Source of the DNA: Parcubacteria bacterium DG_74_3
Lineage (GTDB): Bacteria; Patescibacteriota; Minisyncoccia; Minisyncoccales; DG-74-3
Reading direction: 5' to 3'
NCBI GenBank assembly: GCA_001302985.1
Contig: LJNG01000003.1
Location: 1-41,616, forward strand
DNA length: 41,616 bases
Under the pieces are notes generated by a model, which saw nothing but the letters and a program-made list of their open reading frames with translations, did no database searches and was not told the DNA's origin. Shown here piece by piece: positions 4,396 to 20,375 of the stretch; the stretch's first letter is position 1; each line of letters starts with the position of its first letter. Made by a program: the position numbers and the translations under genes.

Positions 4396-6346
4396 TTCCG
4401 GGCCCTTCGGTAGAATAGGGGGTAAAAATTTCTTTTGGGTATTTTTCTAAAACCTTATCCATAAAAGCGTGAAAAATTGGACCAGCGAGAACAACTCCTG
4501 GTTTTTTAAATGACGGGCTGTTGTCGTTATTGCCAGCCCAGACCCCAACTACCAACGAAGGAGTATAACCTATTGTCCAGGCATCTTGGTAGTTCTGGGT
4601 GGTTCCGGTTTTAGCAGCAACCTGAAACCCTGGAAAATACAAGGAAGAACCAAGTCCAAACATAGGAGCTCTTGCCTCGTTATCTGATAAAATATCATTG
4701 ATCATTCTGGTTACCTGTACGGGCAAAACTCTTTTTTGGGTTTTTTTATTTTCTTCAATAATATTTCCGTTCATGTCCTCAATTTTTAAAATAGCAACCG
4801 GTGGCACCTTTAAGCCTTCGGTGGCAAATGTACCATAAGCCGAAACCATGTCCAATAGTTTAACTTCCCAACCTCCAAGCACAATTGAAGGTCCAAAGGG
4901 TGTTTTCAGGGTTGTAATACCAAGATCGCGGGCAGTGGTAACCGAGTTTTCAATTTCTGGCCCTGCAAAATCTAAAAGGACTTTTACCGAAGCAACGTTT
5001 ATTGACTGGGCTAGTGCTTCTTTTAGAGTAATTTCTCCTCGAAATTTTCCATCGTAATTTTTAGGAATATACTCTTCGTCTCCCCAAATTCCAAAATTAG
5101 TCTCCTCATCAATAACCCGGGTTTCGGGAGTAAACCCCCTTTTAAACGCAGTGGCATAAACAAAAGGTTTAAAAGCTGAACCTGGCTGTCTTAGTCCTAA
5201 GGTTGCTACGTTAAATTGAGGGTCAAATTTACAATTTACTCCTGGGGTACATCCTTCAGGATAAGGGTCCTCAAAATAATCTGTCCCACCCACCATAGCT
5301 AATATTTCTCCTGTTTTCGGGTCAAGGGCTACCAAGGCAGCGTTATAGGCATTATAATTTTTATTTACTTGAACCCGATCTTTTACCACTGTTTCGGCTA
5401 ATTGTTGAATCTCCCAATCTAAAGAAGTAAATACCCTTAACCCCTTTTCTCTTAAAAACTCTTGGCTATATTTACTATCCAGATATCCTTTCACGTATTG
5501 GAGAGTAAAGTAAGGAGCCCTGATCGTTGTTGGTTTGGCAAAATTTAACTCTTCTATTCCGGCTTCCTCGGCTTCAGCTTGAGTTATATATCCCAACTTC
5601 ACCATTCTCTCTAAGACATAATCTTTTCGAGACATAAGCTCTTTTTGATTTTGATAGGGAGAGAGATAGCTTGGTGCCCGAATTAAAGCTACCAGGGTAG
5701 CAGCCTGAGCTAAAGAGATTTCAGAAACTGACTTTTGAAAATAGGTTTGGCTAGCTGCCTCTACCCCATAAGCGTTTGAACCAAAAGGAACCTGGTTTAA
5801 ATACCATTCTAATATCTGGTCTTTGGAATAACGTCTATCTAACTCTAAAGCCAAAATGATTTCTCTAATTTTTCTTTCAGCTGTTTTTTCGGTAGATAAA
5901 AAGGTTGACCTGATTAATTGCTGAGGAATGGTTGAGCCCCCATAAACAGGTTTCATTATTTTAAAGTCTGCCAAAATTGCTCTCACAATTCCTTTAAAAT
6001 CAATCCCAAAATGATAATAAAAATTAGCATCCTCGGTAACAATAACAGCCTGTTTTAAATATTCTGGGATTTGTTCCAAAGGAATAACCGTCCTTTTCTC
6101 TTCACCATGAATATCATATAAAAGAACCTGACCCGTTCTATCATAAATCTTGGTTGATTGGATGAATTGACGTTCGGTAAACTTTTCGGGTCGAGGAAGA
6201 TCTTTACCGTAATAAATAAACAAAAGCAAACCCAGGACAATTACCAACAAAAGGCTGGAGAGAAAAAACTTTAAGAAAGAACCAAACACACTCTTGGTTT
6301 TCTTCTTTTCTCGATAGACTTTTCGATAATATCTTCTTTTAGCCAT
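4382..6346 (-). CDS. Class A penicillin-binding protein (PBP1A-type)
   Basis: A 654-aa bifunctional peptidoglycan synthase anchored by one N-terminal helix (about residues 21-46) after a basic cytoplasmic tail. The glycosyltransferase (GT51) domain has EDANFYYHFG (about 103) and STIPQQLIR (about 137). The transpeptidase domain has the catalytic SxxK as SAFKPF (about 390), SxN as SIN (about 445) and KTGT (about 577). It polymerises glycan strands outside the membrane and cross-links stem peptides. It converges on dnaN with a 14-bp overlap, and its start faces tyrS across a 93-bp spacer. With the MurE-like ligase it implies a peptidoglycan wall. Confidence 0.96.
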   Translation of the reverse strand: MAKRRYYRKVYREKKKTKSVFGSFLKFFLSSLLLVIVLGLLLFIYYGKDLPRPEKFTERQFIQSTKIYDRTGQVLLYDIHGEEKRTVIPLEQIPEYLKQAVIVTEDANFYYHFGIDFKGIVRAILADFKIMKPVYGGSTIPQQLIRSTFLSTEKTAERKIREIILALELDRRYSKDQILEWYLNQVPFGSNAYGVEAASQTYFQKSVSEISLAQAATLVALIRAPSYLSPYQNQKELMSRKDYVLERMVKLGYITQAEAEEAGIEELNFAKPTTIRAPYFTLQYVKGYLDSKYSQEFLREKGLRVFTSLDWEIQQLAETVVKDRVQVNKNYNAYNAALVALDPKTGEILAMVGGTDYFEDPYPEGCTPGVNCKFDPQFNVATLGLRQPGSAFKPFVYATAFKRGFTPETRVIDEETNFGIWGDEEYIPKNYDGKFRGEITLKEALAQSINVASVKVLLDFAGPEIENSVTTARDLGITTLKTPFGPSIVLGGWEVKLLDMVSAYGTFATEGLKVPPVAILKIEDMNGNIIEENKKTQKRVLPVQVTRMINDILSDNEARAPMFGLGSSLYFPGFQVAAKTGTTQNYQDAWTIGYTPSLVVGVWAGNNDNSPSFKKPGVVLAGPIFHAFMDKVLEKYPKEIFTPYSTEGPGTNSL

Positions 6347-6439
6347 AACTCTATTTATTTTTACTAAATTTTATGTGCATTAGCAAAGAGCTTATTGGCA
6401 AATAGAGGAAATTATTATAAAGTTAACGAATAGAAAGAC

Positions 6440-7636
6440 ATGAAAAGAAAAACCGATTCCCAAAAAATTAAAGAAGCATTGACAAGAAGAGTAGAAAAGA
6501 TTTTGCCAGACAGGGAAGGTTTAAAAAAATTAATCCAGAAAACAAGAATCAGGCTTTACTTAGGTATTGATCCAACCGGAAGCAAGCTTCACCTTGGTCA
6601 TACTATAGCCCTTCGAAAACTTCAAGAATTTAGTGATTTAGGACACGAAGCTATTCTTGTGGTTGGCACTGGAACCGTTCTGGCCGGCGATCCTTCAGCC
6701 CGAAATGAAACTAGACCCCGAATTACCGAGAAAGAAATCAGAGAAAATATGGCTACTTGGAAAAAGCAAGCTAAAAAGATTTTAGATTTCTCAAAAGTGA
6801 AAATTCAATACAATGGAGACTGGCTTCTCAAATTGAGCTTAAAAGAGGTTATCGAGATTGCCTCTCATATAAGTGCCATTAAGCTTTTCAAAAGAGACAT
6901 GTTTCAAAGACGCCTTAAAAGAGGAGATACGGTCTGGACCCATGAAACCCTATATCCCTTACTTCAAGGATATGATTCAGTAGTCTTGGATGTTGATTTA
7001 GAAATTGGTGGTACCGACCAAACCTTTAATATGCTGATTGGACGAGAACTGCAACAAAAAATGCGAGGACGAGAAAAATTTATTTTAACCGTTCCGATGG
7101 TTTTGGGAATTGATGGAAAACAAATGAGCAAAACCTCGGGTAATTGTATCTGGTTAACAGACAATCCCAACCAGATGTTTGGTAAAATTATGTCTCTTCC
7201 AGACAATTTAATTATTACTTATTTTGACCTTCTTACAAGAGTGCCCATGGATTTATTGTCTCAATATAGAAAGGAGCTGGGAACGAAAAAAGTTAACCCA
7301 ATGGAATTAAAAGAAAAGTTAGCACTTGAAATAGTGAAAATGTATCATTCAGAGAAAGCAGCCCAAGGGGCAGTCAGAGAATTCATTCGCATTTTTAAAG
7401 AGAAAAAATTACCAGCCAAGATACCGATTATTAAAGTAAAAGACAGAAAGCTGAACATTCTTGATCTTTTAATAAAAACAAAGGTAGCCGCTTCTAGGTC
7501 AGAAGCTAAAAGATTAATTTTGCAAAAAGGAGTGAAAATTAACGGAATTATACAAAAAGACTGGAAAAAAGATGTTGAAACCCAGAAAGGACAAATCATT
7601 CAAGTAGGGAAAAGAAAATTCGTGAGACTGGGATAG
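6440..7636 (+). CDS. tyrS: Tyrosyl-tRNA synthetase
   Basis: A 398-aa class I aminoacyl-tRNA synthetase charging tRNA-Tyr. The nucleotide-binding HIGH motif appears as HLGH (about residue 50) after YLGIDPTGS. The KMSKS loop appears as KQMSKTS (about 226-231). A C-terminal S4 RNA-binding domain (about 335-395, ASRSEAKRLI) binds the tRNA. Full length for the family. It is followed two bases later by a strong GC-rich hairpin that probably ends the transcript. No T-box-like leader fits in the 93-bp upstream gap. Confidence 0.97.
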   Translation: MKRKTDSQKIKEALTRRVEKILPDREGLKKLIQKTRIRLYLGIDPTGSKLHLGHTIALRKLQEFSDLGHEAILVVGTGTVLAGDPSARNETRPRITEKEIRENMATWKKQAKKILDFSKVKIQYNGDWLLKLSLKEVIEIASHISAIKLFKRDMFQRRLKRGDTVWTHETLYPLLQGYDSVVLDVDLEIGGTDQTFNMLIGRELQQKMRGREKFILTVPMVLGIDGKQMSKTSGNCIWLTDNPNQMFGKIMSLPDNLIITYFDLLTRVPMDLLSQYRKELGTKKVNPMELKEKLALEIVKMYHSEKAAQGAVREFIRIFKEKKLPAKIPIIKVKDRKLNILDLLIKTKVAASRSEAKRLILQKGVKINGIIQKDWKKDVETQKGQIIQVGKRKFVRLG

Positions 7637-10458: not shown

Positions 10459-10587
10459 CTGCCCCAGGGCTGGGGAAGAGGAATTTCTCTAAGATGGATA
10501 GTTTGGCTTTAGCTAGGCTAATCCTCGGGGAAATTCTGAACTTTGCGTTCCCAATACCTAAGTTAACCCAGCCCTGGGGCTTTTTTT
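10459..10587 (+). ncRNA. Unidentified structured small RNA with built-in terminator
   Basis: A plus-strand unit of about 125 nt between two minus-strand genes. Its ends pair perfectly over 14 bp: GCCCCAGGGCTGGG at 10461-10474 with CCCAGCCCTGGGGC at 10567-10580. Seven T's follow immediately (10581-10587). Inside, GAATTTC (10481-10487) pairs with GAAATTC (10530-10536), enclosing a hairpin closed by GGAT/ATCC (10496-10499 and 10521-10524). The result is a rod-like RNA. A TTGACA-17-TACAAT promoter ends 8 bp upstream. No open reading frame of note is present. The SRP RNA tetraloop motif, tmRNA and RNase P signatures are absent. A 6S-like role is conceivable from the rod shape but unproven. Confidence 0.75.
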
Positions 10588-11932
10588 ATTGACCGATTAC
10601 TCTTTCTAATTCTTCAATTGTAGTAATGCCTTCTAAGACCTTAATTAATCCGTCTTGATACATTGGCACCATTTTCTTTTTAATTGCCTTTTCTCTTAAG
10701 GTAGCTATTGAGGGTGAAGTCGATATAAATTTTTCCATTTCATCATCGATTAAAAAAGTTTCAAAAATTCCAGTTCTGCCATTATAACCTGTTAAATTGC
10801 AGCCTCTACAACCCTTGGCCTTGGGAATTTTAAGATCTGGTTCTAACTTGGGAATTTGAATTTCGCTTGGAATATTTTTAAGATTTTCTCTTATCTTTTT
10901 CAGCTCAGTACTGCTTACTTTTTCCAATCTGGAGCACTTTAGGCAAACCTTTCTAACCAATCTTTGGGCGATAACTAAGTTTATGGCCGGAGCAATATTA
11001 ATTGGTTTTTCTCCCAGAGCCTGCAATCTCGCAACAGTGCCCGCAGCATCATTTGTATGCAAAGTGGTAAAGACCAGATGTCCGGTTAAGGATGCCTGGA
11101 GGGCAGTCCGGGCAGTCTCTAAATCTCTGACCTCTCCCACCAAAACCACATCAGGGTCTTGGCGCATAATGGATTTTAAACCATTAGCAAAATCATAACC
11201 CTTTTTGGGATTAACCTGGGTTTGAGAAATCCCTCCCAGATGATATTCAATCGGGTCTTCAATAGTAATAATTTTTATTTCTGGTCTTTGAATTTTCGTT
11301 AAAAAGGCATAAAGGGTAGTGGTTTTACCAGAGCCCGTGGGACCCGTCACAATAATCATGCCGTTGGGTCTTTTTATCTCTTTACTAAAAAGTTGGAGGA
11401 GATCTTGCCTAAGCCCCAAAGCCTCCATGTCAATTAAATTTTTTGGGTCTAAAATTCTGAGCACAATTGACTCTCCAAACTCTGCGGGCAAGGTTGAGAC
11501 CCTAATTTCAATTGGATTTTCTCCAAACAAAAATGAAAAACGGCCATCTTGTGGCCGGTCGGTAATATTCAATTTAATGCCAGAAAGGAGTTTTATTCGA
11601 TTAAGAAATCTCTGGTATGCTTCTAAATTGAAACTTAAAACGTCCTGCAAAAGGCCATCAATTCGTATTCTCAATCTGACCAGATCTTCTTTTGGCTCAA
11701 TGTGGATATCAGAAGCACCAAGGACCACTGCTCCGCCCAGGGCAGTTTCTAGAATTTCAGTAATGCTTTTTACCAAAGAGGCTGTTATTTTGGTTTTGAA
11801 ATCAGAAATATTTTTAACTTCTTTCTTAATAATCTGAAGCTGGGCTGTGGGAAGTTTAATTTCACCGGTAATTCTTTGACCACGCTCAGGATCGTGAGCT
11901 TCCTGAATTATTTTTTTTGAAACTTCTTCCAT
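10586..11932 (-). CDS. PilB/GspE-type secretion or pilus ATPase
   Basis: A 448-aa hexameric AAA-like ATPase of the type II/IV secretion family, probably powering type IV pilus assembly at the membrane base. It has Walker A GPTGSGKTTTLY (about 195-206), Asp-box and Walker B regions (PDVVLVGEVRD about 257-267), a His box around FTTLHTNDA, and the tetracysteine zinc motif (CLKC near 333, CRGC near 375) found in PilB/GspE but not PilT. It is shorter than typical PilB (about 560 aa) because the N-terminal MshEN/N1 region is missing or reduced. No other pilus gene adjoins it. The stop lies at the edge of the small RNA terminator. Confidence 0.9.
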   Translation of the reverse strand: MEEVSKKIIQEAHDPERGQRITGEIKLPTAQLQIIKKEVKNISDFKTKITASLVKSITEILETALGGAVVLGASDIHIEPKEDLVRLRIRIDGLLQDVLSFNLEAYQRFLNRIKLLSGIKLNITDRPQDGRFSFLFGENPIEIRVSTLPAEFGESIVLRILDPKNLIDMEALGLRQDLLQLFSKEIKRPNGMIIVTGPTGSGKTTTLYAFLTKIQRPEIKIITIEDPIEYHLGGISQTQVNPKKGYDFANGLKSIMRQDPDVVLVGEVRDLETARTALQASLTGHLVFTTLHTNDAAGTVARLQALGEKPINIAPAINLVIAQRLVRKVCLKCSRLEKVSSTELKKIRENLKNIPSEIQIPKLEPDLKIPKAKGCRGCNLTGYNGRTGIFETFLIDDEMEKFISTSPSIATLREKAIKKKMVPMYQDGLIKVLEGITTIEELERVIGQ

Positions 11933-12072
11933 TAAGGTTTACAATTTAATAGGGTTCCTCAATTTCTAAAAGCTTAGATGAATTTTTAAAGAAAGTCAAT
12001 TCTTTTGTAAGCCCAGGATTGGGCATTCGACTGAGCCTAGTCGAAGTTTTATTGAGGACGCCAAAACATCAA
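11933..12072. repeat. Divergent intergenic region with two adjacent hairpins
   Basis: The 140-bp spacer between pilB-like and tsaE holds two neighbouring inverted repeats. The first is GCCCA-GGAT-TGGGC at 12011-12024. The second is TTCGACT-GAGCCT-AGTCGAA at 12026-12045. They lie in the tsaE leader or promoter area. No T-run follows, so they do not look like terminators. They may be a mobile palindromic repeat or a regulatory fold. Confidence 0.5.
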
Positions 12073-12534
12073 ATGAAGTTAAAATATTTTACCAATACTC
12101 CCGCCCAAACAAAAAAGCTGGGAAGGATTTTAGCCGAAGAAATTTTAAAAACACCCCCCATCAAAAAAGCCTTTGTTCTTGCTCTTGAGGGAGATTTAGG
12201 AGGGGGCAAAACCACCTTTTTACAAGGCTTTGCCAAGGGTCTTAAAATTAAAGAAAAAATCTTGAGCCCCACTTTTGTTTTGATGAAGAAATTCCGAATT
12301 CCGAAATCCAATTTCCAGAATTTTTATCATATTGATTGTTATAGGATAGCAAAAGTAAAGGAAATTTTGAATTTAGGATTTCAAACCATTATTTCCAATC
12401 CAAAAAACATTATTGCAATTGAGTGGGCAGACCGAATTAAAAAACTATTACCTAAAAATATCAGCAATTTAAGATTTATCTTCTTGAATAAAAAAGAAAG
12501 GGAAATTGTGTTACAATTTAAAAATGGAAAGTAA
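12073..12534 (+). CDS. tsaE: tRNA threonylcarbamoyladenosine biosynthesis protein TsaE
   Basis: A 153-aa P-loop ATPase of the TsaBDE complex that makes t6A37 on ANN-decoding tRNAs. Walker A is GDLGGGKTTF (about 38-47), followed by the family phrase SPTFVLMK and then HIDCYRI. Later IAIEWADRI matches the usual EWxxR region. The open frame extends upstream to a TTG at 12019, but that part would encode the hairpin repeat, so ATG 12073 is chosen. A short repeat-like stretch (12290-12309, AATTCCGAATTCCGAAATCC) encodes a small extra loop FRIPKSNF between the SPTF and HIDCYR motifs. The 3' end overlaps the exonuclease gene by 11 bp. Confidence 0.9.
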   Translation: MKLKYFTNTPAQTKKLGRILAEEILKTPPIKKAFVLALEGDLGGGKTTFLQGFAKGLKIKEKILSPTFVLMKKFRIPKSNFQNFYHIDCYRIAKVKEILNLGFQTIISNPKNIIAIEWADRIKKLLPKNISNLRFIFLNKKEREIVLQFKNGK

Positions 12535-13480
12535 AGAAAAGCGTTTTATTATTATAGACAGCAACTCCATAATTCATCGTGCTTTCCACGCTCTCCCTCC
12601 CCTAACTACTAAAAAAGGAGAATTGGTAAATGCAACATACGGTTTTTTATTGGTTTTTTTTAAAATAATTAGAGAGCTGCAACCCGAATTCGTTGCAGCT
12701 GTTTTTGATTATCCTGGTTCCACCTTCCGTCATAAAAAATTTAAAGAATATAAAGCAACAAGACCTCCCGTTCCCAAAGAATTATATCAACAAATACCCC
12801 AGATAAAAGAGATTTTAAAACTTTTCAGGGTCCCAATTTTTGAAAAAGAGGGGTTTGAAGCCGACGATATTATTGGGACAATTGCCAGTTTAGCACCCAA
12901 AAAACAAATAATACCCAAAATCGAAAACGTGATTTTATCGGGGGACCTCGACACCTTGCAACTAATTAACCCTCAAACCAAAGTTTATGCTTTAAGAAAG
13001 GGGGTAAAAGATACTGTTTTATATGATGAAAAACGAGTTAGTGAAAAATATCAGGGATTAAAACCGGGCCAACTCGATGATTTTAGAGCTCTCCGGGGCG
13101 ACCCTTCTGATAACATTCCAGGGGTTAAAGGTATCGGAGAGAAAACTGCCATTAATTTATTAAAAGAATTTGGCTCACTTGAGCAACTTTTTAAGGAACT
13201 AGAAATAGAAAGCCAAAAAGCAACAAAAATTAAGCTCAAAACAAGAGAATTATTAATTCAACAAAAAGAACAAGCGTTTTTGAGCAAAGCCTTAGCTGAG
13301 ATAGAGAGGAACGTTCCTTTTGATTTTAAGCTAAAAGATTGTCATTGGGGAGAATTTAATAAAGAAAAAATAATAGATATTTTGGAAAAATTTGAATTCC
13401 AAACCCTAATTAAAAGATTGCCGGAAATGAAAAAACCAGAACCAAAGAACCTCATGGGTGAGAATCTAAGATTATGGTAG
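12524..13480 (+). CDS. Stand-alone 5'-3' exonuclease (PolA N-terminal domain-like)
   Basis: A 318-aa FEN-family nuclease corresponding to the 5'-3' exonuclease domain of DNA polymerase I, used to remove RNA primers and flaps. Metal-binding acidic motifs are present: IIIDSNSIIHRAFHA at the N-terminus, GFEADDIIG (about 113) and SGDLDTLQL (about 140). The helix-three-turn-helix with GDPSDNIPGVKGIGEKTA (about 190-207) follows. The gene stops shortly after the exonuclease region, so no 3'-5' exonuclease or polymerase domain is attached. Start ATG 12524 is preferred over an upstream TTG. It overlaps tsaE. Confidence 0.9.
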   Translation: MESKEKRFIIIDSNSIIHRAFHALPPLTTKKGELVNATYGFLLVFFKIIRELQPEFVAAVFDYPGSTFRHKKFKEYKATRPPVPKELYQQIPQIKEILKLFRVPIFEKEGFEADDIIGTIASLAPKKQIIPKIENVILSGDLDTLQLINPQTKVYALRKGVKDTVLYDEKRVSEKYQGLKPGQLDDFRALRGDPSDNIPGVKGIGEKTAINLLKEFGSLEQLFKELEIESQKATKIKLKTRELLIQQKEQAFLSKALAEIERNVPFDFKLKDCHWGEFNKEKIIDILEKFEFQTLIKRLPEMKKPEPKNLMGENLRLW

Positions 13481-13490
13481 CAGAAAAAAA

Positions 13491-14366
13491 ATGATAAAAT
13501 TAAATAAAGCTTCAAAAACCATGGAAAAGGAAACAAAAATATCGCTCGAAGAATTCGAGATTTTCAAGAGCGAAAAAGAAAAACCCCTATTGATATGGGC
13601 GTTTATTGGTGATTCTTTTTTTTTGATTGCTACTTTCATAGTTCAATTTGTCTATCAGGAAATTTTCCAAACAGGGATTCTTAGCTGGAAGAACTATTTT
13701 ATTTTAGTCGCTGGCAATCTGCTTTTATTTTTCGGTGTGTTTTTTCTCTGGAGAAAAGGCCACAAGACTTGGCTTTGGAAATATGTATTTGTGATTTTTG
13801 GCATTATTCTTTTGACAACCTGGATTTATCTGACTGACCCTAAATACACCAGAACTATGTTTACCCCCATCTTACTTGTAATAGCTTTATCTGGAGGTCT
13901 TTTTTATGAAATTAACCTAGCTATTCTGGCTACCCTGATTGGGGGAATTGCTTATAGTTTTATACTCTTGCATTATTCTCATCTTGGTTCTCTACCCCCT
14001 CCTTATGAGATTTATTTAACTTTTTTATTCTTTATTTTAACTCTTTTGTTTACCTTTGTGACGGTTAAGCGTACTAAAATATATTTGATTGAACTCCTCG
14101 AAAAACGCCGAGAACTTGAAGAAGCCAAATCAGTCCTCGAAGTCAAGGTTGAAGCCCGAACCAAAGAACTCAGAGAATTAACCCAGGGCTTAGAAGGAAA
14201 GATCAAAGCCAGAACCAAAGAACTTCAAGAAAGAGTCAATCAATTAGAAAGGTTCCAAAAACTCACTATAGGTAGAGAATTAAAGATGGTAGAATTGAAA
14301 AAAGAGATTGAAAAATTAAAGGAAGAACTGGAAAAATACTTGAGAGCCCCGGGTGGCTCTCTCTAA
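13491..14366 (+). CDS. Polytopic membrane sensor with coiled coil, no kinase domain
   Basis: A 291-aa protein with about six membrane helices between residues 35 and 195. A long cytoplasmic coiled coil (about 200-285) follows, made of Glu/Lys/Leu heptads with the phrase ARTKEL repeated and the stretch QKLTIGRELKM. These linkers are typical of histidine kinases just before their PAS or HisKA domains, yet the protein ends there. The next gene, 5 bp on, encodes PAS, HisKA and ATPase domains. I infer that the two together form a split sensor kinase. ATG 13491 or the internal ATG 13521 could be the start. The ligand or signal is unknown. Confidence 0.7.
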   Translation: MIKLNKASKTMEKETKISLEEFEIFKSEKEKPLLIWAFIGDSFFLIATFIVQFVYQEIFQTGILSWKNYFILVAGNLLLFFGVFFLWRKGHKTWLWKYVFVIFGIILLTTWIYLTDPKYTRTMFTPILLVIALSGGLFYEINLAILATLIGGIAYSFILLHYSHLGSLPPPYEIYLTFLFFILTLLFTFVTVKRTKIYLIELLEKRRELEEAKSVLEVKVEARTKELRELTQGLEGKIKARTKELQERVNQLERFQKLTIGRELKMVELKKEIEKLKEELEKYLRAPGGSL

Positions 14367-14371
14367 AAATA

Positions 14372-15583
14372 ATGAATAAAGAACCAGGAAAAAAAGAAGA
14401 TAGGTTTTTAGAATCTCTTCCACCAAAAACAGGTAGAGAAGAGGAGTTCGGTAAGAGTGCCGAAGCCCTACTTAATATGCTTGAAGATGTCGAGGTATCC
14501 CGAGAAAGAGCTGAAGAAGAAAGAGATAAAACCTTAGCAATTCTTAATAACCTTACCGAAGGCGTCTTGGTTTTTGATGAAGAAAACAAACTGGCAATGA
14601 TTAATCCCCAAGCAAGAGATTTTTTAGAAATAGAAAAAGAAGAACTCTTCGGAAAATCAACCCTAGAACTTTTTCAAATCTCCAGACTAGAGCCCCTAAT
14701 GAAATTTTTAGGAACCGAAATAAGGGGTCTTTTTAGAAAAGAAATAAAACTCAGAGAAAATTTAATCTTAGAAGTGTCCACTATTCCTTTGGTAAAAGAA
14801 GAAAGAACCCTGGGAAAGATAGTTACTTTACATGATATAACTAGGGAAAAAGCAATTGAGAAAATGAAAACAGAATTTGTCTCTATAGCCGCTCATCAAT
14901 TAAGGACTCCTTTGTCAGCAATTAAATGGACCTTGAGAATGATTTTGGATGGAGATTTAGGAAAAATAACCGAATTTCAAAAAGAATTTATTGAAAAGAC
15001 ATATGCCTCAAACGAAAGAATGATTAACCTAATTAATGACCTTTTGAACGTCACCAGAATTGAAGAGGGGAGATATCTTTATAAACCAACCCCAACTGAT
15101 ATTGAACCAATTATAGAATTTGTAGTGGGTTCTTACAGAGAAGAAGCCGAAAGAAAAGAACTTAAGCTTGGAATTAAAAAACCCACTAGAAAAACCCCCA
15201 AAATAATGGCTGACGTTGAAAAAATCAGATTAGCTATTCAAAACATTTTAGACAACGCTATTAGATATACTAAACCCAAGGGTCAGGTAACGCTATCGTT
15301 AGATTACGATAAAAAATCACATCAAATAAAGATTTCAATTAAAGACACGGGTGTGGGTATTCCTAAAGACCAGAAAACAAGGGTCTTTACTAAGTTTTTT
15401 CGGGGTGCCAATGTAATGAGAATGGAAACGGAGGGATCCGGCCTGGGTCTTTTCATTACTAAAAATATTATTGAAGCCCATGGAGGAGAAATCTGGTTTG
15501 AGTCAGAAGAAGGAAAGGGCACAACTTTTTATTTTACCCTCCCCGCCAAAAAAGAATTCGAAAGATTTATTGAGGGCTTCTGA
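14372..15583 (+). CDS. Cytoplasmic PAS-domain histidine kinase
   Basis: A 403-aa kinase. Layout: N-terminal coiled coil (about 15-50), PAS domain (about 50-155, ILNNLTEGVLVFDEE), HisKA with the phospho-accepting His in AAHQLRTPLS (about 172-181), and an HATPase_c domain with N-box QNILDNAIRY (about 290), G1 DTGVGIP (about 324) and G2 GSGLGLF (about 356). There is no membrane segment, so membrane sensing must come from a partner, most likely the protein encoded 5 bp upstream. The two receiver-only proteins at 17359 and 17779 are the obvious phosphotransfer targets. It heads the unusual membrane/V4R island. Confidence 0.92.
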   Translation: MNKEPGKKEDRFLESLPPKTGREEEFGKSAEALLNMLEDVEVSRERAEEERDKTLAILNNLTEGVLVFDEENKLAMINPQARDFLEIEKEELFGKSTLELFQISRLEPLMKFLGTEIRGLFRKEIKLRENLILEVSTIPLVKEERTLGKIVTLHDITREKAIEKMKTEFVSIAAHQLRTPLSAIKWTLRMILDGDLGKITEFQKEFIEKTYASNERMINLINDLLNVTRIEEGRYLYKPTPTDIEPIIEFVVGSYREEAERKELKLGIKKPTRKTPKIMADVEKIRLAIQNILDNAIRYTKPKGQVTLSLDYDKKSHQIKISIKDTGVGIPKDQKTRVFTKFFRGANVMRMETEGSGLGLFITKNIIEAHGGEIWFESEEGKGTTFYFTLPAKKEFERFIEGF

Positions 15584-15719
15584 ATTCCATTTAAAAATAA
15601 TTTATTTTGTTTTCTATAAATCAAGAATATTACGAAAATTACAGCTTTACCTTTACTTTTTTTATACCGACGGTTACAAAGATAAATCCCGGAACTTCTT
15701 GAGTTATTGAGCAAAAACC
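15584..15719. other. Intergenic region upstream of the small membrane proteins
   Basis: A 136-bp AT-rich spacer after the kinase gene. No clear hairpin terminator, promoter pair or small ORF is evident to me. Confidence 0.3.
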
Positions 15720-15962
15720 GTGAAAGACCATTTATTTCTTTTAAGTATCTTTTTTGTTATAATAAATATAATCCAAACTCGACTGATAGCATCGTATAAT
15801 CTTTTGGTTAGAGGAGGAATAATGGTTGCGCTAATGGAAATTATTGAGGCACCCCTGATAATCTATCTGCTTTTAAGGGGAGGGGTTGATATTTTCTTTC
15901 TGGTAGTGGTTACTGAAATAACCCAATGGTTGATTATTGCACACTTGGCAACAAAAAGTTAA
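15720..15962 (+). CDS. Small membrane protein, ExxE paralogue A
   Basis: An 80-aa protein with about three hydrophobic segments if started at GTG 15720. ATG 15822, preceded by a strong GAGGAGG Shine-Dalgarno, would give only 46 aa. The longer form is favoured for content because LVRGGIMVALMEIIEAPL lines up with ILRGVFITAIAEIGEML in the 16014 protein, including the Arg-Gly and the ExxE pair in the helix. The Shine-Dalgarno favours the short form, so the start is unresolved. Family not recognised. It sits between the histidine kinase and two larger relatives. Confidence 0.55.
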   Translation: MKDHLFLLSIFFVIINIIQTRLIASYNLLVRGGIMVALMEIIEAPLIIYLLLRGGVDIFFLVVVTEITQWLIIAHLATKS

Positions 15963-16013
15963 AATTAATTAATCCATCAAAGGTCGAAAATACTTAAAAA
16001 TATTATTTAGAAA

Positions 16014-16400
16014 ATGATTGTACCACTTAGTCCTAAAATCCTATTATTTGGACTTGAATACTTCGACATAAACACCTTAATGGGTCAACCATTGGGGTGG
16101 TTGAAATGGCCAACTCTTTTGGGACTCATTTTTGCGGCTGTCTCCTTCGTAATCGCCGCTTTCTACATTGTCAAATATACCCAGGGATTTTATAGGGGGA
16201 GAAGGATTCCTCGGTCTTGGAAATTTATTTTGCGGGGTGTTTTTATTACTGCTATTGCTGAGATCGGAGAAATGCTGGGTTTTTACGAATGGCCCAACCC
16301 AGGACTTATTGAGATGAATTTACTTTTAATATTTCCTCATGCTATAGGTGGAGTTCTGATTGGTCTGGGAGCTTATTATTTATACAAAGAAGTAACCTAA
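16014..16400 (+). CDS. Small four-helix membrane protein, ExxE paralogue B
   Basis: A 128-aa protein with about three to four membrane helices. It shares a clear pattern with the next gene: VKYTQGFYRGRRIPRSWK here against IGYTKKFYGGRPIPEEWR there, then a helix with AEIGEMLGFYEW against HELIETILLYQW. Two Glu residues four apart within a predicted membrane helix are notable and could bind a metal or carry protons, which is inference. I do not recognise a named family. It is co-directional and closely spaced with the kinase, V4R and receiver genes. Confidence 0.7.
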   Translation: MIVPLSPKILLFGLEYFDINTLMGQPLGWLKWPTLLGLIFAAVSFVIAAFYIVKYTQGFYRGRRIPRSWKFILRGVFITAIAEIGEMLGFYEWPNPGLIEMNLLLIFPHAIGGVLIGLGAYYLYKEVT

Positions 16401-16407
16401 AGATACT

Positions 16408-16779
16408 ATGCAGATGCCAATTTTAGAATTTAATGCAGTTAACCCTCTAACCTATCCCTTCGGCCCCATACTTCCGATGAATCTTTTTTGTTTGTTGGTT
16501 CACATTCCCATAGTTTTTGGCTTTGGAGCCGCAGCCTATTGGATTATCGGTTATACCAAGAAATTTTATGGAGGAAGACCGATTCCAGAAGAGTGGAGAA
16601 GTTTTTGGATGGCAATGGTCTGGGGAACAGTTCATGAGCTAATAGAAACCATTCTTCTTTATCAGTGGATTGTTGGGCAGGTTTTATTAATTGTTTTCTT
16701 TGTGGTTCAGGTTATAGCCGGAATTTATCTTGTCTGGGGAAGTTATCTGTTGGCTAAAAAATATATCATAAGAGGATAG
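16408..16779 (+). CDS. Small four-helix membrane protein, ExxE paralogue C
   Basis: A 123-aa membrane protein, 7 bp after its paralogue. Helices lie at about 24-46, 65-85 and 88-118. The cytoplasmic-looking loop YTKKFYGGRPIPEEW and the ExxE-containing helix (HELIETILLYQW) repeat the layout of the preceding gene, which indicates tandem duplication and divergence. Here a His replaces the residue just before the first Glu. ATG 16408 is used; a second ATG two codons later is possible. Function unknown. The V4R gene follows 7 bp downstream with a GAGG ribosome-binding site. Confidence 0.7.
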   Translation: MQMPILEFNAVNPLTYPFGPILPMNLFCLLVHIPIVFGFGAAAYWIIGYTKKFYGGRPIPEEWRSFWMAMVWGTVHELIETILLYQWIVGQVLLIVFFVVQVIAGIYLVWGSYLLAKKYIIRG

Positions 16780-16786
16780 GTGTGAT

Positions 16787-17329
16787 ATGGAAAAAATAAT
16801 CGAGGGGATTGAAAAAGAGCTCAGGGATGTAGCTGAGGGTAAGCCATTAAAGCCTCTTAAAAAACAATTAGGAGAAGAAATTACTGTCTGCTATTTAAGG
16901 GTCGCGCTTTTTGCCCTCCAATGGACCTCGGTTGGCTATCATTCTGCCTTAAGATTAGCCGGAATGAAACTGGGCAAAAGAGTAGGAACAGGAAGCGAGA
17001 AAACAGAGCTTTCTCTGGTTTTAGAAGAAATTGCCAGAATATTACGAGCTTTAAGAGGGGGAGAGGTTGAGACTGAAATTATGCCAGAGTCAAGAGGAGC
17101 CCAAATTAAAATTTACGATTCCCCCCTTTTGAACGACATTCCCAATATCTTACAAAACATTTGCTTTTTTGAAGAAGGGTTTATTGAGGGTTATCTTGAC
17201 GGGGTTATAGCCAAACAAGGGGCCCTAGCCCTAGCCGAAGCTAAATTTTCAATTAGTGAAGTTTCGGTAGAAGAAAAAAGGTGTGTTGGTTTAGGTGATG
17301 ATCACTGTGGTTTCCTGATTAAATTTTAA
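16787..17329 (+). CDS. V4R-domain protein
   Basis: A 180-aa soluble protein whose C-terminal half matches the V4R (4-vinyl reductase) small-molecule-binding fold, a relative of TRAPP/Bet3 and of the sensory part of XylR/DmpR-type regulators. The diagnostic ending is present: EEKRCVGLGDDHCGFLIKF, with the paired Cys separated by GLGDDH. An N-terminal helical part (about 1-70) precedes it. V4R domains are thought to bind hydrocarbons or other small ligands. Placed between membrane proteins and response regulators, it may be the ligand-sensing part of this pathway, which is inference. Confidence 0.75.
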   Translation: MEKIIEGIEKELRDVAEGKPLKPLKKQLGEEITVCYLRVALFALQWTSVGYHSALRLAGMKLGKRVGTGSEKTELSLVLEEIARILRALRGGEVETEIMPESRGAQIKIYDSPLLNDIPNILQNICFFEEGFIEGYLDGVIAKQGALALAEAKFSISEVSVEEKRCVGLGDDHCGFLIKF

Positions 17330-17358
17330 AAACCTTAAAGATAATTAATTAAAAATCA

Positions 17359-17730
17359 ATGGCAAAAAAAATTTTACTACTTGAAGACGAAGAAATAATG
17401 CTTGACCTTCTTCAGAGAAAATTAGCCAAAGAAGGTTACGATGTGTCAGTAGCTAGAGACGGAGAAGAGGGTTTAGAGAAGATGAGAGAAGCAAAACCCG
17501 ACATTGTTTTATTGGATGTCATTATGCCAAAAAAAGGAGGATTTGAGGTAATGGAAGAAATGCTAAAAGATAAAGATTTAATGAATATCCCAGTTATTAT
17601 TATCTCAAATTCCGGGCAACCAGTAGAACTTGATCGAGCTAAAAAATTGGGAGCAAAAGACTGGTTAATTAAAACCGAATTCGATCCTCAGGAAGTAATT
17701 GATAAGGTAATTAAGCAAATCGGAAAATAA
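17359..17730 (+). CDS. Receiver-only response regulator 1 (CheY-like)
   Basis: A 123-aa single receiver domain with no output domain. The acidic pocket is in LLEDEEIM (about 6-13), the phospho-acceptor Asp in IVLLDVIMP (about residue 54), the switch Ser in IIISNSGQ (about 83), and the conserved Lys in DWLIKTEF (about 106). The gene starts 29 bp after the V4R gene and is likely in the same operon. A domain with no effector must act by protein contact or as a phosphate relay or sink. Its kinase is presumably the one at 14372. Confidence 0.93.
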   Translation: MAKKILLLEDEEIMLDLLQRKLAKEGYDVSVARDGEEGLEKMREAKPDIVLLDVIMPKKGGFEVMEEMLKDKDLMNIPVIIISNSGQPVELDRAKKLGAKDWLIKTEFDPQEVIDKVIKQIGK

Positions 17731-17778
17731 TCCACTGAACCGTTTCTCTATTTTACCCTAAAATAATTGCGAGATTTT

Positions 17779-18147
17779 ATGCCTAAGAAAATTTTAATTA
17801 TTGAAGATGATAAATTTCTTAGAGAGCTTATTGCTCAAAAACTCCACAGAGAAGGCTTTGAGGTAGCTGAGGCTATTGATGGTGAAGAGGGAATAAAGAA
17901 AATAGTCGAGGAAAAACCAGATTTGATTTTGTTAGACCTTATTTTGCCTGGAATAGACGGTTTTGAGGTGCTTTTGCGAATGAAAGAAGATGCATCCTTA
18001 ACCCTAATTCCCGTGATTATCCTTTCTAACCTTGGACAAAAAGAAGACGTAGAAAGAGGTTTAAAGTTGGGAGCCGTCGACTACCTCATTAAAGCCCATT
18101 TCACGCCCGGAGAAATTATTGATAAGATTAAGACTAATCTGAAATAA
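17779..18147 (+). CDS. Receiver-only response regulator 2 (CheY-like)
   Basis: A 122-aa receiver domain similar to its neighbour: acidic pair in IIEDDKFL, phospho-acceptor Asp in LILLDLILPG (about residue 53), switch Ser in VIILSNLGQ, Lys in DYLIKAHF. An upstream TTG at 17767 would add four residues; ATG 17779 giving MPKKILIIED is the normal family start. Two tandem receiver-only proteins and no DNA-binding regulator suggest a phosphorelay or competing outputs. A hairpin repeat (18151-18196) follows and closes the signalling island. Confidence 0.92.
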   Translation: MPKKILIIEDDKFLRELIAQKLHREGFEVAEAIDGEEGIKKIVEEKPDLILLDLILPGIDGFEVLLRMKEDASLTLIPVIILSNLGQKEDVERGLKLGAVDYLIKAHFTPGEIIDKIKTNLK

Positions 18148-18214: not shown

Positions 18215-19099
18215 ATGCCAGAACTACCCGAAGTTGAGACAACGGTTCGTTATTTAGCAAAAAATGTCCTAGGAAGGACCTTTTTTGATGTTTGGACAGA
18301 CTGGTCTAAAACGATTAAAATTCCCAAAAACTTCCAGCAGTTTAAAAAAGAAATTAAGGGAAGGAAAATAAAAAAAATTTGGAGACGGGGAAAAAATATC
18401 CTCTTTGAACTTTCAGGTGAAAAGATCTTATTAATTCATCAAAAACTTACAGGTCACCTGCTTTTTGGAAAATGGACAAGAGAAAACAACACTTGGCAAG
18501 CCCCACTGGGCCCTTTATCAGAAAGAATTAATAGTTATCTCCACCTTATTTTTACTTTAGATAATGGCCAAATGTTGGCTCTTTCTGATGTAAGAAAATT
18601 TGCTAAAGTAGAATTATGGGACAGCAAAAAACTGTTTGACTCCCAGGGATTTATAAAACTAGGACCCGAACCCCTGGGAAAAAGTTTTACTTTCGAAAAA
18701 TTTAGAGAAGTTTTGACAGAGAAGAAAGGGAAAATAAAGCAAATCTTAATGAATCAAGAAGTAATTGCAGGTATTGGTAATATTTATTCAGATGAAATAT
18801 TATTTAGGGCTAAGATTCACCCCCTGAAAAACATTTCCGAATTAAGCGAAAAAGAACTAAAAAGAGTTTATCAGGTAATGAGAAAGGTTTTGTCTCTAGC
18901 GGTTCATCTCCAGGGAGAGTCAATTTCTGATTACCGGGTCCCTACCGGAAAAGAAGGGGGTTTTGATAAGGCCAGAAAGGTCTATCGAAGAACAGGAGAA
19001 AGATGTTCTCGTTGCGGAACAATAATTAAAAAGATTAAAGTGGGAGGTAGGGCAGCTCATTTTTGCCCCAGATGTCAAAAATATAAACCAATCAGTTAA
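18215..19099 (+). CDS. mutM: Formamidopyrimidine-DNA glycosylase (Fpg/MutM)
   Basis: A 294-aa bifunctional DNA glycosylase/AP lyase that removes 8-oxoguanine and other oxidised purines. The N-terminal catalytic Pro and Glu are in MPELPEVET, the catalytic Lys region is HQKLTGHL (about 73-80), and the helix-two-turn-helix QEVIAGIGNIYSDE (about 186-199) is complete. The C-terminal zinc finger has CSRCG and CPRCQ. Length is slightly above the usual 270 aa. It stands between the signalling island and a small independent transcription unit, with no clear operon partners. Confidence 0.97.
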   Translation: MPELPEVETTVRYLAKNVLGRTFFDVWTDWSKTIKIPKNFQQFKKEIKGRKIKKIWRRGKNILFELSGEKILLIHQKLTGHLLFGKWTRENNTWQAPLGPLSERINSYLHLIFTLDNGQMLALSDVRKFAKVELWDSKKLFDSQGFIKLGPEPLGKSFTFEKFREVLTEKKGKIKQILMNQEVIAGIGNIYSDEILFRAKIHPLKNISELSEKELKRVYQVMRKVLSLAVHLQGESISDYRVPTGKEGGFDKARKVYRRTGERCSRCGTIIKKIKVGGRAAHFCPRCQKYKPIS

Positions 19100-19117
19100 A
19101 TTATTGTATTTATATTC

Positions 19118-19146
19118 TTGACAAGCTTTTATATAGATCTTATAAA
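19118..19146 (+). promoter_or_regulatory. Consensus promoter for the 57-aa gene
   Basis: TTGACA (19118-19123) and TATAAA (19141-19146) with a 17-bp spacer. A GAGGAGGAGG ribosome-binding site follows at 19149-19158. Confidence 0.8.
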
Positions 19147-19166
19147 AGAGGAGGAGGGGCGAACAA

Positions 19167-19340
19167 TTGGACAAAGTAATTATAGTCGCTGAACTAAGAG
19201 ACCCCATAATCGGCGAAGAAACAAACAAGGTGGAAGCTTACTTACAAAGATATCTAGTTCAAAGAATTATTCCTTGGGCTATTGTCTGCGAGAGAGGAGT
19301 GGAAGTCAGAATAGAGAGAGGCACGAATAAACTATCCTAA
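19167..19340 (+). CDS. 57-aa protein of unknown function, TTG start
   Basis: A short gene starting at TTG (19167-19169), 8 bp after the extended Shine-Dalgarno GAGGAGGAGG. The product starts MDKVIIVAELRDPIIGEE, continues with NKVEAYLQRYLVQRI and ends TNKLS. It looks like a small folded alpha/beta protein with one Cys; I do not recognise the family. A consensus promoter lies just upstream, and a strong hairpin terminator begins 1 bp after the stop, so this is a complete single-gene unit. The signals suggest high expression. No alternative ATG start fits the ribosome-binding site. Confidence 0.75.
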   Translation: MDKVIIVAELRDPIIGEETNKVEAYLQRYLVQRIIPWAIVCERGVEVRIERGTNKLS

Positions 19341-19341
19341 A

Positions 19342-19383
19342 AGGCTCTAAATTTTCATGAAAAATTCAGAGCCTATTTTTTTT
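19342..19383 (+). terminator. Intrinsic terminator of the 57-aa gene
   Basis: AGGCTCT (19342-19348) pairs with AGAGCCT (19368-19374). An inner AATTTT/AAAATT pairing extends the stem, and eight T's follow at 19376-19383. Confidence 0.85.
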
Positions 19384-19427
19384 GAGTAATTTATAATAAG
19401 ATGTAGAGTAGTGGTTTAATAAAAAAT

Positions 19428-20375
19428 ATGATTATTTTTCTTTACGGAGAAGACACCTATAGACTCAATCAAAAATTACAAGAAATACTTGAAAAGTACA
19501 AACAAACCCACAAAAGAGGATTAAATATAAAAATATTTGATTTCGGGGCGGCAACTGGTGAATTAAGTTTTCAAGATTTCAAAGAGGAACTTCAACAGAC
19601 CTCCATGTTTAAAGAGAAAAAATTAATAATACTTAAAAAAATTTTTTCAAACCAACACTTTAAAACAAATTTTTTAAAAGACATTAAAGACTTAATTGTC
19701 TTGGAAGACATCATTGTAATTTTTGAAGATGAAAAAGTCTCCTCGAGCGATTCTTTATTTAAGGCTCTCAAAAAGAAAACCCAGTATCAAGAATTCAAAA
19801 AATTAGAGGGAGAACTGGTGAAAAACTGGGCCAGAAAGGAATTTAAAAAATACCAAGCCAAAATTCAACCCCAAGCCCTTTCAAAATTAATTGATTTTGT
19901 GGGTAATGATTTATGGCAACTTTCTAATGAAATAAAAAAGTTGATTAGTTATAAAAAGGGGAAAGAAATTCTAACAAGAGATGTCGAGCTTTTAGTGAGA
20001 CCAAAAATTAATTCTGACATCTTTGAAACCATCGACCACATTGCCTCGAAAAAGAAAAAGAAGGCTCTTGAATTGCTTCATAAGCATTTAGAGAAAGGAG
20101 ACTCCCCCTTATACTTGCTTTCAATGATTAGTTATCAGTTTAGAAATCTTTTGGCAATTAAAGACCTGGTAGAAAGAAATCAATCCCCCTATTTTTTCGG
20201 GAAAAAAGCAGGTCTTCATCCCTATGTAATTAAAAAAAGCTACCCCCTGGCTCAAAAATTCACCTCCGAAGAACTAAAAAAAATCTACCAGAAAATACTT
20301 GAAGTAGATTTTAATATCAAAACCGGCAGAATTACACCGGAAACAGCTCTTGATTTATTAATTGCAGAGATTTGA
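19428..20375 (+). CDS. holA: DNA polymerase III subunit delta
   Basis: A 315-aa clamp-loader subunit that opens the beta clamp. The N-terminus MIIFLYGEDTYRLNQKL is typical of HolA, where the P-loop-like region is degenerate. The middle DLWQLSNEIKKLISY and the C-terminal region with SMISYQFRNLLAIKDL and the ending TPETALDLLIAEI are the best-conserved parts of the family. It is expressed independently of the preceding small unit and converges on rpsT with a gap of three bases. Gene neighbours holA and rpsT are often adjacent in bacteria. Confidence 0.9.
   Translation: MIIFLYGEDTYRLNQKLQEILEKYKQTHKRGLNIKIFDFGAATGELSFQDFKEELQQTSMFKEKKLIILKKIFSNQHFKTNFLKDIKDLIVLEDIIVIFEDEKVSSSDSLFKALKKKTQYQEFKKLEGELVKNWARKEFKKYQAKIQPQALSKLIDFVGNDLWQLSNEIKKLISYKKGKEILTRDVELLVRPKINSDIFETIDHIASKKKKKALELLHKHLEKGDSPLYLLSMISYQFRNLLAIKDLVERNQSPYFFGKKAGLHPYVIKKSYPLAQKFTSEELKKIYQKILEVDFNIKTGRITPETALDLLIAEI

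Follow-up and report, generated by a model that had tools for sequence, protein, structure and literature searches.

We analysed a run of eight genes at positions 13491-18147 of a 41,616-nucleotide stretch of DNA (the window) from contig LJNG01000003.1 of Parcubacteria bacterium DG_74_3. This island encodes a stand-alone membrane sensor, a soluble histidine kinase (HK), three small membrane proteins designated here M0, M1 and M2, a V4R-domain protein and two single-domain receivers, RR1 and RR2. Comparison with related genomes rather favours the view that the island belongs to a two-component hub, constant at its back end and swappable at its front, where the M0-M1-M2-V4R cassette and sensors with a common C-terminal tail feed one kinase, which would tune type IV pilus motors via RR1 and RR2. 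The order of the locus and its sequences are kept in independent genomes far above chance.

All eight open reading frames (ORFs) are present on the plus strand, separated by gaps of 5, 136, 51, 7, 7, 29 and 48 bp. Together with the domain scores they bear out much of what had been proposed earlier from the letters alone (the sequence-only reading): a closely spaced run of genes with the domains named above, making up a sensing unit in which the kinase is separate from the sensor and the chain ends in receivers, with no DNA-binding output protein. Predicted promoters and terminators at the locus were registered in numbers near the shuffled expectation. The source genome comprises 544 kb in 21 contigs, its named relatives being Nealsonbacteria and Parcubacteria.

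A constant kinase-receiver core

The kinase (14372-15583) has the layout coil-PAS-HisKA-HATPase_c with scores of 27.9, 59.9 and 108.8 bits for the PAS, HisKA and HATPase_c domains, respectively. Its H175 and ATP-binding boxes (N291/N295, D325/G327/G329 and G355/G357) are intact and invariant in 28 homologous kinases. Both RR1 (17359-17730) and RR2 (17779-18147) match Response_reg, and among 27 aligned rows for each of them residues D10/D53/S83/K105 of RR1 and D14/D15/D57/S87/K109 of RR2 are invariant; the latter are numbered from the TTG at 17767. RR2, which also carries SNLGQ...KAHFTP, most likely starts at the ATG in position 17779 rather than at this TTG, its homologues opening with MPKxILIIEDD. 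Judged by these residues, the kinase and both receivers have the two-component signature intact: the HisKA histidine, the HATPase_c boxes and the receiver Asp/Ser/Lys. Three histidine kinases are encoded in the source genome (a fourth HATPase_c match, in a 663-aa frame, is probably GyrB), and since all five of its receivers are single-domain proteins, the lack of a DNA-binding output in the island is normal for this genome. At one related locus, L080, the PAS part and the HisKA-HATPase part of the hub kinase occupy two overlapping reverse-strand ORFs (5904-6689 and 6686-7441), which means either a natural split or a frameshift.

An RR1 orthologue (threshold E<=1e-40) was found in 104 of the 196 genomes of the order, in a single copy in all but one, but only in 6 of 286 genomes sampled across the phylum, of which 4 belong to the same order. 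Twenty contexts were sampled from the 104 genomes, all of them lacking the V4R family of the island, and in every one the genes lie together in the order HK-RR1-RR2. The gene holA lies downstream in 19 and a polA-type exonuclease upstream in 16 of these contexts; in the other four the stretch or the contig ends first. The neighbourhood as a whole is shared across the order, with tsaE and the exonuclease on the left and Fpg and holA on the right. In the window these customary flanks are represented by tsaE and a polA-type 5'-3' exonuclease (12019-13480, plus strand) and by Fpg glycosylase and holA (18215-20375, plus strand). In genomes G608 and G818 RR1 and RR2 are fused as one REC-REC protein (L143:1450-2352, L144:1477-2307), suggesting that they work as a pair. 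Based on this gene order, we consider it highly probable that the hub is built as a fixed kinase-RR1-RR2 set at one chromosomal position, with sensors changing around it.

Swappable sensors and their common tail

The interval between the exonuclease and the kinase holds a sensor array that differs from genome to genome. Its members are coiled-coil sensors with 5-8 transmembrane (TM) segments, Cache-HAMP-coil proteins, binding proteins (SBP3, Bmp and others), PAS-coil proteins, FIST proteins and V4R-like proteins of 200 aa, the last being common components of hubs. The stand-alone sensor of the island (13491-14366) has six predicted TM segments and a C-terminal coiled coil but no kinase domain; neither this protein nor M0, M1 or M2 matched any Pfam or NCBIfam family above its cutoff. 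Its coil ends in the segment GRELKMVELK (14271-14300). The consensus of this segment, GRELKMxELK, was registered in 24 stand-alone sensors from 19 of 28 loci, always 7-25 residues before the C-terminus. It is present in none of the 28 kinases, nowhere in 261 kb of non-hub DNA around 29 non-hub receivers, and the search in plasmids revealed no such segment. We read it as a docking tail that would be needed only where sensor and kinase are separate proteins. In some loci they are not: PAS-coil is fused to the kinase in L012, L076, L077, L083-L086, L089, L090 and L092 and encoded by separate genes in other loci, and Cache-HAMP is fused to it in L074, being a separate protein in other genomes. Because of these fusions and of the specificity of the tail for separate sensors, the latter quite probably act on the kinase.

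Type IV pili as a candidate output

Three non-hub receivers of the source genome are all encoded inside type IV pilus operons, with gene orders PilB-REC-PilT-PilC, HK-REC-PilB-PilC and PilB-HK-REC-PilC. Thus 544 kb of DNA accommodate three separate operons of this type (L152, L153 and L154), each with its own PilB and single-domain receiver. In a broader set, 15 of 29 non-hub receivers (8 genomes) lie in pilus operons; the binomial chance of this is ~3e-10, a rough value uncorrected for relatedness and obtained on the generous assumption that pilus operons take up 7.4% of the genome. In the tree of 57 receivers RR2 clusters with the pilus-linked ones (support 86/92), and RR1 forms a clade of its own (97/97). 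A divergent PilB/GspE-like ATPase is encoded upstream of the hub on the minus strand of the window (10586-11932), beside tsaE and the exonuclease, and adjoins the same pair in 14 other hub loci; it may be a partner. Because of the receivers residing in pilus operons, the grouping of RR2 and the PilB-like ATPase near the hub, pilus control is the output that we favour, giving it roughly even chances.

Several observations weigh on the other side. For 14 of the 29 non-hub receivers no pilus genes were seen alongside, some of the stretches being short or cut; the grouping of RR2 with pilus-linked receivers is only moderately supported and leaves RR1 outside; and the divergent ATPase may be near the hub merely through conserved housekeeping gene order. 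The same hub may then have a different output, with RR1 and RR2 contacting some other protein, be it a transcription factor or one of cell division or of the envelope. Besides the isolated position of RR1 and the roughly half of non-hub receivers beside which no pilus genes were seen, this is in line with stand-alone receivers that have no partner known being common in archaea (PMC5847659). However, the pilus operons around every other receiver of the source genome, the affinity of RR2 and the ATPase flanking 14 other hubs do not fit it, and an output other than pili seems rather unlikely, albeit the most serious alternative to pilus control.

The M0-M1-M2-V4R cassette

The genes of M0 (15720-15962), M1 (16014-16400), M2 (16408-16779) and the V4R protein (16787-17329) follow the kinase on the plus strand. 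The V4R family of the island was found in 8 of 247 genomes of the order (G000, G002, G082, G124, G321, G500, G520 and G526), leaving out a weak 29-bit match in G518; G526 is spread over two contigs, one of which appears to be L018, since its coordinates are the same. A ninth genome with this family, Torokbacteria G608, is outside the 247. M1/M2 are present in 6 of the 247 genomes, always with V4R (hypergeometric P 9e-11, phylogeny ignored), or in 7 of the nine V4R genomes if G608 is counted, and invariably sit between the kinase and V4R. M0 is complete in 5 of the seven genomes with M genes, internally deleted in G082 and not found in G520. G002 and G124 have the order kinase-V4R-RR1-RR2 with no M genes; therefore V4R is part of the kinase-receiver unit whether or not M is present, and M accompanies V4R. 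In all nine genomes V4R comes after the hub kinase, either directly or via the M genes. M0-M1-M2-V4R is a rare, optional, putative sensor cassette between the kinase and RR1. Checked for descent as a single clade, it proved patchy, with ~5 changes on the tree of the kinase and on that of holA, both poorly resolved.

The sequence-only reading had counted three related small proteins with an ExxE motif. This holds for M1 and M2, which are paralogues (28% identity, hhalign probability 96.8%), but was not borne out for M0, whose comparison with them was not significant (probability 1%), though ExxE is present there as well. M0 was also considered as a truncated version of M1/M2, for which hhalign gave no significant support. 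The ExxE glutamates (E83/E86 in M1, E77/E80 in M2) are invariant in 14 of 14 M1/M2 sequences, and YxW is invariant as well. M0, a membrane protein of ~80 aa with a GTG start, has E40/E43, invariant in 4 of 4 M0 sequences, and also E66/Q69. The structure model of M2 (predicted local distance difference test, pLDDT, 79) contains three long helices (24-54, 61-85 and 90-121), in agreement with three TM segments, the second of which bears ExxE. Because of K/R residues at the TM1-TM2 loop and at the C-terminus, the positive-inside rule would place ExxE towards the outer half of TM2. Profile search with M2 found no solved relative, and no M2 was found in viral contigs.

The same slot between kinase and RR1 is filled in L076 (7617-8294, minus strand), L087 (6822-7553) and L143 (449-1189) with multi-TM proteins of 225-244 aa. 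They are mutually dissimilar, two of them were scanned and neither exceeded a Pfam cutoff; their kinship with M1/M2 was not supported by hhalign. Tandem multi-TM proteins of ~240 aa each, 41% identical, are also encoded upstream of the exonuclease in L010 (363-1979).

The V4R protein consists of 180 aa, has no helix-turn-helix (HTH) part and matches PF02830 with 45.1 bits (Pfam cutoff 31), the sole family above its cutoff. C126, C166 and C174, as well as E163, are invariant in nine V4R sequences. Structure comparison returned MopR, PoxR, MJ1460 and Bet3 at Z 3.2-3.7 among other folds (model pLDDT 50), and profile search of PDB gave chance matches only, both for this protein and for a V4R-like hub protein. 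Proteins of the Asgard archaeon Prometheoarchaeum in L022, L023 and L024 have a C-terminal cysteine region in common with the island V4R. The three-cysteine cluster of MopR binds zinc. Mutations of three conserved V4R cysteines in MaMsvR affect redox-dependent DNA binding (PMC3729527), and the TRAPP subunit Bet3, active in vesicle tethering, is a homologue of V4R (PMC2253512). Judging from these relatives, our best guess is that the cassette perceives a hydrophobic or a redox/metal signal (PMC2253512; PMC3729527).

That the cassette serves as an input to the hub appears likely. Against the hub model as a whole speaks G608, where kinase and V4R of the cassette copy are followed by no receiver within 3.7 kb and the REC-REC fusion with another kinase is located elsewhere, and so do the structure models: that of M2 matches no known fold (no match with E below 1.8), and that of V4R is poor. 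The layout in this Torokbacteria genome is kinase-M0-M1-M2-V4R (L020:5786-10037), with the receivers and the second hub kinase on another contig (L146).

If the patchy distribution and the tethering function of Bet3 (PMC2253512) are put first, M0-M2 and V4R can be taken for a cassette handling lipids or hydrophobic compounds, incidental in the hub, with upstream sensors as the sole inputs. This is unlikely, since V4R follows the hub kinase in 9/9 genomes, L076, L087 and L143 have different multi-TM proteins in this slot, and V4R-like proteins are common in hubs. Much less probable, and largely refuted, is the model of the sequence-only reading, in which M0-M2, V4R, kinase and receivers make one dedicated, self-contained sensing or transport system. 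The spacing of 7 bp both between M1 and M2 and between M2 and V4R is in its favour, and neither rare co-occurrence nor conservation of the ExxE and V4R genes apart from kinase and receivers was found: order-wide and phylum-wide searches revealed no M1/M2 without V4R and kinase. Yet kinase-RR1-RR2 exist in about half of the order genomes, mostly without this V4R or M, and V4R is kept without M in G002 and G124. Neutral synteny, i.e. unrelated signalling genes lingering between polA-exonuclease and holA in slowly rearranging small genomes, is suggested by the equally conserved housekeeping flanks but is the least credible explanation, as the set of sensors changes around a persisting kinase and receivers, sensors are seen fused to the kinase and the receivers to each other, and the tail is restricted to stand-alone sensors.

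Relation to known systems

One of the closest parallels is the Pil-Chp system of Pseudomonas aeruginosa (PilJ-ChpA-PilG/PilH), in which, as in the hub, the membrane sensor is separate from its kinase, two CheY-like receivers have no output domain and the motors of type IV pili are the proposed target (PMC12632253). The action of PilG/PilH on PilB (PMC12632253) is a model for the proposed output of the hub. However, the hub kinase is of the orthodox HisKA/HATPase type, unlike the CheA-type kinase of Pil-Chp with its Xpt/Hpt domains; hub sensors are many and swappable, those scanned have no signalling domain of methyl-accepting chemotaxis proteins, and the pilus output is a putative one. With XylR/DmpR/MopR and MsvR the island shares a V4R domain above the Pfam cutoff and three invariant cysteines, the last two of which are 8 residues apart (C-x7-C), as C232/C240 of MaMsvR (PMC3729527). 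The distance from the first to the second cysteine differs (40 in the island protein, 26 in MaMsvR). The island V4R is free-standing, without the AAA+, sigma-54 or HTH parts of XylR/DmpR/MopR, and compared with MsvR it scores only 43 bits (equivalog >220), covers profile positions 109-236 only and has no N-terminal HTH. Since the defining features tested are missing, the island, so far as they can tell, falls outside Pil-Chp, XylR/DmpR and MsvR.

In archaeal two-component systems REC-only regulators likewise dominate, their output being presumed to go through protein contact, and the archaeal MetOD1 domain resembles V4R (PMC5847659). The hub differs from them in that its kinase-REC-REC core is fixed and keeps to one conserved locus, that its sensors are swappable and that its lineage is bacterial. 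Receivers from pilus operons of Patescibacteria are 45-56% identical to RR2 and group with it, but the gene of RR2 belongs to the hub and is not near the complete pilus operons. No description of the hub, the tail or the M/V4R cassette was found in the open-access literature. Kinase, receivers, V4R, FIST and PAS are of known kinds; what is new is their arrangement. On the whole, the sequence-only reading was supported in part, and the pilus link and the sensor tail were absent from it.

Proposed mechanism and its meaning

In the hub as we envisage it, separate sensors would dock on the kinase by their C-terminal coiled coil, which has GRELKMxELK at its end, and a stimulus bound by any of them would alter kinase activity. 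The kinase would phosphorylate RR1 and RR2. Phosphorylated RR2 may bind motor or platform proteins of the pilus, changing its extension or retraction, and RR1 is perhaps an antagonist or a phosphate sink. M1/M2 (and M0) may associate within the membrane as a small complex in which the paired glutamates and YxW would serve to recognise a ligand or to pass it on, and V4R, as a cytoplasmic domain sensing hydrophobic ligands or redox/metal state, could relay the state of the M proteins to the kinase or the receivers.

Taken in full, this amounts to a plug-in hub: a kinase with a REC pair and exchanged sensors (periplasmic-binding-protein/HAMP, Cache, PAS, FIST, V4R and small membrane complexes), many with a shared docking tail. 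All of them would have type IV pili, and thereby possibly host attachment, under their control, and M0-M1-M2-V4R would be a new class of membrane-coupled V4R receptors. In this complete form the proposal is tentative, its chances being somewhat below even. How pilus extension and retraction are controlled in Patescibacteria has been named as an open question, and every member in culture lives attached to other microbes (PMC12206443). If the proposal is true, the tail motif would be a portable test for the sensors that go with the kinase, and M0-M2/V4R would represent a new means of coupling a V4R domain to the membrane. One conserved hub taking different sensors would also account for the ability of 0.5-0.9 Mb genomes, having only a few kinases, to cope with varied niches.

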